A DNA stretch of 64,000 bases from Ptychodera flava (Eukaryota > Hemichordata > Enteropneusta > Ptychoderidae). The stretch covers positions 34,911,326-34,975,325 of the forward strand of contig NC_091931.1 of assembly GCF_041260155.1 (NCBI RefSeq). The letters are read 5' to 3'. A model generated the notes under the pieces. That model saw only the letters and a list, made by a program, of their open reading frames with translations. It made no database searches and was not told where the DNA came from. The translations under genes and the position numbers were made by a program. Shown in pieces: positions 24,363-63,313 of the stretch. Each line of letters starts with the position of its first letter. Within the stretch, counting starts at the first letter, position 1.

Positions 24363-27300
24363 CTATGGTATGTCGCGATTTTCGCACAGTTGCGTTCTGC
24401 TGTCTGTTATCTCTTTCTGTCTACGTCTTTTTGTTGACGATTTATCGGATGTGGATGAAGACAGATCATCTAGTTCACCTGCTTCGGGCAAAACGACATT
24501 CTTCGATAAAGTTTCAAGTTTCCTGTTGGTAGGTTTTTTGTAGCTGAAAATGATGGGAAAGATAGTCACGTGAGATGCTTGTGCAAATAATAATACAGTA
24601 TCTTAGGTATGCAATTATTTCAAAATTTGAACATGTAGACCCCTAACACATACATTGTGTTGAGTGTTATCACTCTCTTGAGGTCACGCCAGGACAGCAA
24701 ATGTATGTGTTCAATTGTTGTCCACCATTTTCAACATTTAGTCAGATTTTGTTGTATTCGATTTGAATAAAAAGTGTTTTTAAGTCGCCAATAACGTTTT
24801 ATAGCTTCTCAGAAATAGTCTACTGATGATGACAACGCGCACAAACTGTTGAAAACAGCCAGGGCCAGAACAGTTGAAAGTGATGTAAGGAATGACATGT
24901 TTACTTACAGTTTGAGTAACAGCGATGAACCAAGCACCGAGACGGATGACGCAGCCATCGCGGCAGCCGCCATCCATGGTTCCAACATGACGCAAATTGG
25001 CATCAGTACGCCTGTAGAAGATAGGGTTGGTGAAAAACCATTAGTTATTCATGATATATGCATAAATTTACTTATTGCGAGCCTTCATAAGTATGCAACC
25101 AACCAGAACACATGCATCGATTCACACACACATACATATATATTATGAGAGAGAGAGAGAGAGAGAGAGAGAGAGAGAGAGAGAGAGAGAGAGAGAGAGA
25201 GAGAGAGAGAGAGAGAGAGAGAGAGAGAGAGAGAGAGACAGGCTGCCTTCTCGTAGGCACGTAGAGACTTATGAATAATGTATACTGACATACCTCACAC
25301 ATACCTCACCTATTACATACCTACTTCACCAAATATAAACTTAAACTTGACTGTAAAAAATAATTACTGCACTGAGCAATCACTCACCGGCAGCTATTGG
25401 AATGGCGACGACATTGTAGATGATAGCGAAACCAAAGTTCAAACGAATACGACGTATAGTCTTATTGGACAGGTCCATGGCCGCCACCACATCTAGTAGA
25501 TTACTCTGTAATCAAACGGAGATTAATAAAATCCATTACAAATACTGATTTATTCTTAATGCTTTTCATGTATTTGCCACACATTCCGTTATATGTAATG
25601 GCGGAATGACGTTCTTTCATTTGCGACGTGCAAAGTCTAATTATTGTTGTTGTATGCCATCAACAACTGATAAACCACAGACGCTTTAAAAACGACAATA
25701 GCTGTAACTCGTGATAATATTTTCATTATCTTATTGCAGAAACAATAATAACAATAATAATTTATAATTCTTTTAACTAAAGTATGTCAGAGCAATACCA
25801 TGAATTAGTCACATATGAAGGACTGTGTTGACAGGCTGGTTATTCTTCACTTCAGCATGATTGGGAGTAGAACAAAAAACTTTCTGGGAGAAGAACAGGA
25901 ACCGTCTGTTAAAAAACATGATAAAAATATCGAAAAATACATTACAGATGAAATCATACAGCTAAGGGGTTTTAAGAAATATGTACACTGCCTTACCTTG
26001 ATTAAAACAATATCTGCAGCTTCAACGGCAATGTCGGTTCCTGTTCCCACGGCAACACCAATGTCGGCTTGAGCAAGTGCTGGCGAGTCGTTGACACCGT
26101 CCCCTACCATGGCAACGACGTGGCCCCTGCCCTGTAGCTCCTGAACCGTCTTCACTTTGTCGGATGGAAGAACCTCAGCGCACACTCGATTTATTCCAAC
26201 CTGACATATGATAATTTAGCATGTGAATACGTGAGGGAGAAACACACGGTTCAGAACACTGAAGGTTAACAAAACCGATAATCAGTCTGTATATACGGTG
26301 CAAATCTTTTGCTACATCATACAACATGGGTATACTATGTCCTGCATTTCAAATTGCTTTACGTTTTACAGGAATAGCTTCAAACATTCCTACGCTTCCT
26401 TTATCCATGAATATAGACCTACATATGCAAAGAACATCAGCAATCTCCCAAGAAGATAGAAACGGAGCACTGTTTATCCTTTAACGACGGCTGAGATGGA
26501 ATTCATCTTTATACACAGAAAATGAAAAAATAACGCTGTTATGATACATGCGTTCTATTCTTCGTCCAAATGTCTCACCTGTTTAGCAATGGCGTCAGCG
26601 GTTTTCCTGTTGTCACCTGTCAAGAGTATGACAGACAGTCCCATTCCGTGGAGTGCACTCACAGCTAGCTGTGACTCTTCCTTGACAGTGTCAGCGACAA
26701 CAACCATTCCTGCCAGAGTACCTGCAATCGACGCAAAAGAAACGATATCATCTCTCCGGCCGGATACATGGACAGGCAGACTGGTGATCGATATGGTGTA
26801 ATAGCAGATAGATCAGTGGCTGTTCGGAGAGGGGCGAATTACTAGTAATGAATGGGTGGATATAGAAAGACTGACTGAGAGACGTTGATGGAAAGACAGA
26901 CCTACATACATATACTCGTGTAAAGCGATACAAAAGACATATATCGAGATATAGTTTCGTAGAGGTACACGACGGATGAAAAGACAGAGTCTGATTATGA
27001 AGACCGACAGATTGGTATACGGTGAGACAGATGTATAGATAAACAGACAGAAAGACAGACAGATAAACTAACTCATGTTGATTAGTTTATATTTACATTT
27101 TTGTAAGACAACAAAACGATTCTAGATCTTTTTTTCGATCCAATATTTACCATTTATGGCGACCAAAACAACACTGCGTCCTTGATCTTCATGCTCCGTC
27201 ATTTCATCATCAATTGATGACGTAATGACCATGCCCGCCTGTGTCATCCACTCTCGCTTGCCTATCAGAACATGGTATTCCACGGAAGAGTTGTCTTCCT

Positions 27301-62700: not shown

Positions 62701-63313
62701 ATCCATTGATTTTTGACCATTACAATTATTTATATTTCTTTTTGTAACTGTCAGACATGACAATGCTCAGTATTCAGTTGGTCAGTGCAGCCTTGTCTTC
62801 ATACTTTACATTGTAGTTTGTTGAAAAGTAAATTGATGTCAAGGTTTTCACTAAATTTTGTCACAACACTATTGCAGCATAAAATATAAGTATACCAAAT
62901 GTGTATTTGGTTCCCTTGAATAATCTTTCAAGACTTCTTGTTCTTTTCAAAATACAAACTATGACCCACATAAAATCAATGAAATGTTTTGAAATTCATT
63001 GCAGAGTCCTATATTTCCAACTGTTTTTCGACTTTGAGTTGGTTTTTAAAAGATATTTTCATCCATTATTGCATTTTAGATCTTTGGTGGAAGGTACTTC
63101 TATGTACAAGCATACAAAGCCATGAAACACAGAGCCACCAATATGGACGTCCTCATCGTCCTGGCAACCAGCGTGGCATACATATACTCAGTGATAATTT
63201 TACTGATAGCGATCATTGAGGAACACAGAGTGAGTCCAAAGACATTCTTTGACACGCCTCCGATGCTGCTTGTATTTGTATCTTTTGGAAGATGGTTAGA
63301 ACACATTGCCAAG
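47728..63313 (+). CDS. ATP7-type copper-transporting P1B-ATPase with nine HMA domains (copy B), 5' part
   Basis: Cu(I)-exporting P1B-ATPase. Eight exons join in frame: 47728-47838 (coding part; acceptor at 47704), 52885-54412, 58267-58506, 60392-60555, 61654-61815, 62073-62155, 62381-62540 and 63080-63313; 894 residues so far. Nine GMTC-x-x-C copper sites: first Cys at about residues 16, 91, 164, 254, 331, 415, 489, 611 and 687. Eight of nine conform exactly to GMTC(N/A/S/Q)SC. The last two ([14 protein letters not shown] and [14 protein letters not shown]) correspond to human HMA5 and HMA6. Four membrane helices follow, with [30 protein letters not shown] and [12 protein letters not shown]; the window ends before the TGE, CPC and DKTG exons. 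Exons of 162 and 83 bases equal those of copy A, so intron positions are shared. ATG 47728 lies just before the first HMA domain. The whole protein should exceed 1,600 residues if its core is of usual size. Confidence 0.94.
47839..52884. other. Copy B intron 1, about 5.0 kb
   Basis: AT-rich intron between the half-HMA first coding exon and the six-HMA exon. It shows no repeat element or conserved-looking block that I recognise, and its short open frames have no domain signature. Confidence 0.6.
52885..54412 (+). other. 1,528-bp exon of copy B carrying six HMA domains
   Basis: CxxC sites lie at 53044, 53263, 53533, 53764, 54016 and 54238, spaced 219-270 bp. The units are closely alike: each has a (V/I)[13 protein letters not shown] start (IQG in the last) and ends near A(I/V)DDMGF; NSC is the same in all six. 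The exon starts with the second half of the first HMA domain ([12 protein letters not shown]...IDDIGF), so that fold is split by the 5 kb intron after the exon 47728-47838. The similarity of the units suggests expansion by unequal exchange inside the exon. Long minus-strand open frames here are shadows. Confidence 0.9.
54413..58266. other. Copy B intron 2, about 3.9 kb
   Basis: AT-rich intron. Contains the small dispersed element 54504-54595 and a short (GT)n tract near 55393-55408. Otherwise nothing recognised. Confidence 0.6.
54504..54595. repeat. ~92-bp dispersed element with TTCACC inverted ends (copy 2)
   Basis: AACCTGTTCACACCCAATTG...GGCTGTAAACAGGCC...GGGCCAAACC...GAGTGAAAGTGTTAA. Aligns end to end with 59832-59922 and more loosely with 18274-18366. 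Lies in a copy B intron. Also carries an internal CCTGTT/AACAGG short inverted pair. Confidence 0.65.
59832..59922. repeat. ~92-bp dispersed element with TTCACC inverted ends (copy 3)
   Basis: TTAACCTGTTCACCCCCAAT at the left and GGTGGTGAAAGGGTTAA at the right form the inverted termini. The internal TCCCTGTAAACAGGTCC and CAGGCCAAACCATGG blocks match copy 2 in order. Lies in the copy B intron 58507-60391. Confidence 0.65.

Follow-up and report, generated by a model that had tools for sequence, protein, structure and literature searches.

The window analysed here, a stretch of 64,000 nucleotides from contig NC_091931.1 (assembly GCF_041260155.1, positions 34,911,326 to 34,975,325), contains two genes of the ATP7 type, the Menkes/Wilson disease family of copper pumps, copy A on the minus strand with a single HMA domain and copy B on the plus strand with nine. 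This one-versus-nine contrast, put forward in a preliminary description of the window, is confirmed: both genes look genuine, and the contrast is a new variant within the known ATP7 family. We read the pair as two old paralogues of ATP7, the P1B-1 ATPase by which animals export copper, with copy A as an ungated pump that has kept only MBD-1 and copy B as a copper-gated pump; the roles are deduced, and we give this reading a probability of about 0.6. Naming of the metal-binding domains (MBDs) follows PMC10973460, where MBD-1 is the one nearest the membrane. A1 stands for the HMA domain of copy A and B1 to B9 for those of copy B. Positions are counted from the first letter of the window, and exons are listed in Table 1.

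Domain content of the two copies

Pairwise identity places the only HMA domain of copy A next to the last one of copy B (53% to B9, 29-43% to B1-B8) and, among the human and Xenopus domains, closest to MBD6 (50% and 49%). In a tree of 22 HMA domains, A1, B9 and the human and Xenopus MBD6 split from the rest with a support of 94, while MBD5 is joined by B8 at 99. The places of B1-B7 are among vertebrate MBD1-4, where one-to-one matches did not resolve. By these comparisons, the single domain of copy A corresponds to the membrane-proximal MBD-1 (human MBD6, the ninth of copy B), and the eighth and ninth domains of copy B to human MBD5 (MBD-2) and MBD6 (MBD-1), so that the distal domains number seven in copy B and four in vertebrates. 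The earlier view that the two HMA domains nearest the membrane are the ones needed fits copy B, which has both, and not copy A, which retains just MBD-1 without MBD-2.

The copy A gene runs through 17 exons to a stop codon at 24363 in a single open frame, giving 949 amino acids from the ATG at 35245 or 971 from an in-frame upstream ATG at 35311. All its introns are GT-AG, the only type admitted in the exon-join search. Splice sites were scored with a simple matrix, and the lowest copy A acceptors are those of exons 5 and 11. An alternative first exon (34838-35029, MSKHIV...) was discarded, as its donor (GAG/GTCGAC) is poor by eye and the first HMA strand is missing; the chosen exon 1, which ends in YVTVHLT, supplies that strand and joins in the right phase from a better donor. 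Pfam reports one HMA domain (residues 34-94), E1-E2_ATPase, Hydrolase and the related Hydrolase_3 in the protein, and the NCBIfam model for copper-translocating P-type ATPases (TIGR01511) scores 608.1 bits with a cut-off of 397.

The catalytic motifs are those of a P1B-1 copper ATPase, with DKTGT, TGE, GDGxND (as GDGVND), CPC and the HP motif (SEHP) each present once. They are accompanied by TGDN, the entry-site NMDVL, and the YN (IIYN) and MxxxS (MAASS) motifs of the copper-site helices. The HMA domain, with GMTCSSC at residue 38, adjoins the membrane domain and carries its CxxC as in animal ATP7 proteins; HMA9 takes this place in copy B. Among solved structures, copy A comes closest to human ATP7B, with 1094.5 bits, and to Xenopus ATP7B, with 1073.4 bits, and the same core and P1B-1 motifs are found in vertebrate ATP7A/ATP7B (human ATP7B 7xuk, Xenopus ATP7B 7si3). 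The 17-exon frame, Pfam and the motifs thus all agree with the earlier account of a 971-residue protein with a full catalytic core and a single GMTCSSC domain. Animal ATP7 proteins are, however, also defined by having at least MBD-2 and MBD-1; copy B has both and copy A only MBD-1, so that copy A is an ATP7 by its core and MBD-1 and not by the full domain set.

Copy B comprises eight exons from 47728 to 63313, encoding 894 amino acids in frame, and runs off the window; a search for its next exon in 63314-64000 found none. As first described, it is incomplete and has nine HMA domains ahead of its first helices: Pfam recognises nine HMA stretches, each passing alone (whole-protein E = 3.5e-149), while six further Pfam names listed had no stretch passing alone. 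Six and a half of these domains fall within the single 1528-nt exon 2, and HMA1 and HMA8 are each interrupted by an intron, at similar points, their halves complementing each other. A frameshift suspected in exon 6 was rejected, another frame being open. Read on beyond the donor at 54412, the frame of exon 2 meets a stop after four codons, at 54424, so that intron retention at that donor would yield a soluble seven-HMA protein.

This early stop bears on whether copy B might be two genes, with exons 1-2 encoding a soluble protein of seven HMA domains and exons 3 onwards a pump with two. An unspliced message would indeed encode the former, the junction between exons 2 and 3 splits no domain, and the exon 3 acceptor was picked by eye. 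On the other side, the strong donor (CAG/GTGAGT) and the exon 3 acceptor are matched in phase and keep the frame open, and the domains follow one another as in vertebrate ATP7. With introns 1 and 3 falling within HMA1 and HMA8, the exons on either side of each intron are linked by a shared domain. We consider such a split most improbable and treat copy B as one gene.

For the count in copy A, hidden or degenerate HMA domains were searched for in six frames over the 64 kb. A loose pattern, [GNSTAI][MV][TSHDK]C..C, run as a chance level, gave 12 matches, 10 of them the HMA domains of copies A and B; the other two (44503 and 47630, minus strand) are absent from the HMA profile hit lists. Two HMA profiles were scanned, one made from the ten domains and a wider one adding human and Xenopus domains, and neither found a further credible HMA in the window: copy A exon 3 appeared at E = 0.86 and 3.2, and all other non-HMA matches at E of at least 1.6. 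Leave-one-out profiles recovered A1 at E = 1.2e-18 and B9 at 1.7e-19; the first half of B1 came back at 8e-13, and the two halves of B8 at 3.3e-13 and 4.2e-11. This control covered A1, the first half of B1, B8 and B9, the second half of B1 sharing its open reading frame (ORF) with six other HMA domains.

Additional domains for copy A were rejected on these two scans and their controls, and copy A has one HMA domain, barring exons past the end of the window, at a distance of more than 28 kb. The frame of exon 1 is open for 60 codons ahead of its donor, so an acceptor inside this exon is possible, and copy A could then be incompletely modelled, with more HMA exons upstream and several domains in truth. 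We find this very unlikely, as the minus strand from 35.3 to 64 kb has no similarity to HMA profiles that recover even half-domains. A COQ2-like gene on the same strand, with its 3' end 5.9 kb upstream of copy A, also bounds the upstream region.

Age and relationship of the copies

The 162- and 83-nt exons noted at the outset as common to both copies are indeed present in each (exons 2 and 3 of copy A, exons 5 and 6 of copy B), and the common descent of two true ATP7-type genes is supported. From MBD-1 through the helices that end ahead of the actuator domain, copies A and B are identical at 122 of 218 residues (56%). Over the same stretch, copy B matches human ATP7B at 123/216 (57%) and Xenopus ATP7B at 130/216 (60%), and copy A matches them at 114/219 (52%) and 118/219 (54%), respectively. 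The two copies have thus diverged from each other about as much as copy B has from human ATP7B, and the split is old. The nonsynonymous rate (dN) between the copies is 0.36; dating by synonymous changes was dropped, since the synonymous rate (dS, about 3.9 by NG86) is saturated and unreliable.

The same divergence bears on whether the pair is an assembly artefact or a pair of pseudogenes. The evidence comes from a single window, but that window has no N letters across its 64 kb and both models are open in frame. The two cannot be haplotype duplicates, as 44% of their amino acids differ over the shared stretch. We hold an artefactual or pseudogene origin to be extremely unlikely.

The branching order is less firm than the age. 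The best tree of the shared stretch puts copy B with the vertebrates and copy A outside, with a support of 57-59, and in the HMA tree B9 joins vertebrate MBD6 without A1 at 82. In the approximately unbiased (AU) test, neither copies A and B as sisters (p = 0.324) nor copy A with the vertebrates (p = 0.18) was rejected. Copy A may be a duplicate that arose in this lineage and was shortened at its N-terminus, or it may stem from an older line. A more far-reaching view, that the copy A lineage split before copy B-type ATP7 parted from vertebrate ATP7B and represents an unrecognised second animal copper-ATPase with MBD-1 only, lost in vertebrates, is in our opinion doubtful.

A proposed division of labour

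Excerpts of PMC10973460 provide the structural background for the proposed roles. Throughout the cycle MBD-1 remains bound to the actuator domain, where its role is probably structural; MBD-2 docks at the platform where copper enters, and the distal MBDs are seen as probably autoinhibitory. Human ATP7B is nearly inactive with all its MBDs removed, while with MBD-1 alone it keeps about 50% of its activity at abundant copper (PMC10973460).

Mechanistically, the MBD-1 of copy A would extend the actuator domain structurally by docking on it, as in known structures. Having lost the autoinhibitory distal domains, and also MBD-2, the presumed guide of copper or its chaperone to the entry site, copy A would turn over whenever a cytosolic chaperone brings copper directly, with no copper gating and probably at lower efficiency. 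The absence of the distal domains and of MBD-2 is what makes us infer an ungated pump, and retaining only MBD-1 it should also lack the MBD-2 delivery or docking step. As the natural equivalent of the MBD-1-only construct, it is expected to be ungated and perhaps less efficient. Copy B, with MBD-1, MBD-2 and seven distal HMA domains, would instead be autoinhibited; copper binding along the chain would release the pump and probably relocate it, and gating would extend across a wide copper range. A division of labour with copy A constitutive and copy B copper-sensing is plausible. As a hypothesis it is a good one: the literature backs the role of copy A by analogy, but so far not that of copy B.

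The contacts between MBD-1 and the actuator domain were followed by sequence alignment. The Xenopus ATP7B salt bridge R613-D826 (PMC10973460) aligns with R82-D299 of copy A, counted along the printed alignment numbering, and the rice HMA4 pair D233-R449 aligns with D77-K297, where lysine replaces arginine. One pair is therefore kept and one conservatively changed. In the tail of copy A, after LYKK, no LL, [DE]xxxL[LI] or Yxx[LIVMF] match was found. Human ATP7 tails carry di-leucine signals, and a tail without these motifs would be consistent with a loss of regulated trafficking in copy A.

Several points weigh against the proposed roles. Removing MBD-3 and MBD-2 from rice HMA4 left it unable to complement yeast (PMC10973460), and by analogy a pump with MBD-1 only may be weak. 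The contact residues of copy A could be conserved for other reasons, the two copies are known here from their genes alone, and the actuator (A), P and N domains of copy B, that is its catalytic core, lie with its tail beyond the window end at 64000.

Copy A might also have lost or changed its transport role, having become weak, tissue-restricted or neofunctionalised, instead of being the constitutive half of a shared job. Its missing MBD-2, the D-K in place of a D-R pair at the second salt bridge and its slightly larger distance from vertebrate ATP7B (52-54% identity, against 57-60% for copy B) all speak for such a change. However, every catalytic motif checked is intact across its 17 exons, and the dN with saturated dS given above is consistent with long purifying selection. 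We regard a changed role as unlikely and favour copy A as the ungated and copy B as the copper-gated pump.

Neighbourhood and known ATP7 systems

The two copies were first described as head-to-head. Their orientation is divergent, but they are not driven by a common promoter, as 12.4 kb, including the COQ2-like gene, separates one start from the other. They are neighbours, whereas human ATP7A and ATP7B are on different chromosomes. The intervening gene, of the COQ2/UbiA type (4-hydroxybenzoate polyprenyltransferase; TIGR01474, 397.1 bits, cut-off 275.45), occupies one ORF at 41233-42588 on the minus strand and may be a retrocopy or naturally intronless.

Table 1. Exons of copies A and B and further ALG11 exon matches in the window.
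Feature	Position	Strand	Content
Copy A exon 1	35141-35311	-	ATG 35311 or 35245; short N-terminus; first HMA strand YVTVHLT; donor ACG/GTAGGT, phase 0
Copy A exon 2 (162 nt)	34549-34710	-	single HMA, GMTCSSC at 34684-34704
Copy A exon 3 (83 nt)	33706-33788	-	HMA end and linker to membrane
Copy A exon 4	33206-33374	-	first membrane helices
Copy A exon 5	32033-32278	-	membrane helices, entry-site NMDVL; acceptor score -0.4, lowest in model
Copy A exon 6	31301-31550	-	actuator domain, TGE
Copy A exon 7	30749-30873	-	actuator domain end
Copy A exon 8	29965-30114	-	membrane helix
Copy A exon 9	29491-29691	-	CPC copper-site helix
Copy A exon 10	28748-28933	-	phosphorylation site DKTGT, SEHP
Copy A exon 11	27940-28210	-	nucleotide-binding domain; acceptor score 0.7
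Copy A exon 12	27151-27303	-	nucleotide-binding domain
Copy A exon 13	26579-26721	-	P domain, TGDN
Copy A exon 14	25997-26200	-	P domain, GDGVND
Copy A exon 15	25388-25505	-	helix with YN motif
Copy A exon 16	24909-25011	-	helix with MAASS (MxxxS) motif
Copy A exon 17	24363-24543	-	short cytosolic tail and stop codon
Copy B exon 1	47728-47838	+	start, first half of HMA1 (GMTCQSC)
Copy B exon 2 (1528 nt)	52885-54412	+	second half of HMA1, HMA2-HMA7 (six GMTCNSC)
Copy B exon 3	58267-58506	+	56-residue linker, first half of HMA8 (GMTCASC); acceptor by eye, unscored
Copy B exon 4	60392-60555	+	second half of HMA8 (counterpart of human MBD5, MBD-2)
Copy B exon 5 (162 nt)	61654-61815	+	HMA9 (GMTCSSC; counterpart of human MBD6, MBD-1)
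Copy B exon 6 (83 nt)	62073-62155	+	HMA9 end and linker
Copy B exon 7	62381-62540	+	first membrane helices
Copy B exon 8	63080-63313	+	membrane helices, NMDVL; gene continues past window
ALG11 exon match	20030-20308	-	Pfam match
ALG11 exon match	17735-18070	-	Pfam match

Past the 3' end of copy A, the next recognised gene is ALG11 (Pfam ALG11_N, 254.2 bits, ORF 18741-19799, minus strand). In human, one bidirectional promoter serves both ATP7B and ALG11, as stated in an excerpt of PMC8027023, whereas here ALG11 is at the 3' side of copy A and points in the same direction. The presence of ALG11 near ATP7 in both cases suggests that the ATP7-ALG11 neighbourhood is old and shared, with its orientation altered.

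Elsewhere in the window, a large foldback element at 43441-44344, with arm pairs of 105 and 128 nt (100% and 99% complementary) and inner repeats, looks like a recent palindromic insertion. Two adjoining ORFs occupy 10442-12135 on the minus strand: the first has a family 2 glycosyltransferase domain (Pfam) and resembles a beta-1,4-N-acetylgalactosaminyltransferase, judging by eye, and the second has no NCBIfam match. An exon of an amiloride-sensitive sodium channel lies at 2281-2523 on the plus strand (Pfam ASC, 45.9 bits), and ORF 4565-4999, taken for a later exon of that gene, has no Pfam match. Together with the spliced genes, this channel exon marks the window as probable genomic DNA of an animal, and a gene with nine HMA domains makes a vertebrate source unlikely. 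RNA family models gave no match at gathering scores in the window.

Compared with known proteins, copy B has the MBD-2/MBD-1 order of vertebrate ATP7, although human ATP7A and ATP7B have six MBDs each, and here there are one and nine. Prokaryotic CopA resembles copy A in its short N-terminus with few HMA domains, but the MBD-1 of copy A is of the animal type, and its 1094.5 bits to ATP7B contrast with at most 479.7 for the bacterial and archaeal CopA structures listed. The MBD-1-only human ATP7B of PMC10973460, again from the excerpted text, likewise has one HMA domain by the ATPase core, but it is a laboratory truncation and copy A a natural gene. Multi-HMA genes like copy B exist outside vertebrates, with three MBDs in C. 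elegans CUA1, four in Drosophila DmATP7 and seven in the amphioxus protein (PMC3308323); the excerpt of this review describes none with one or nine.

The preliminary description knew of no animal pair with such a contrast. No one-versus-nine ATP7 pair was recognised among the full-text literature matches listed, and automatic annotations in eukaryote databases may well hold similar genes. An unequal pair as such is on record, as zebrafish ATP7B is predicted to have four MBDs against six in ATP7A, according to the same review (PMC3308323).

Arguments about what the ATP7 metal-binding chain does still rely mainly on truncated constructs, and a one-versus-nine pair in one animal would offer natural proteins for testing gating, docking of the chaperone and trafficking. 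Should the species be a non-chordate, the pair would also break the statement, in the excerpted review, that non-chordates have a single ATP7 per animal (PMC3308323).

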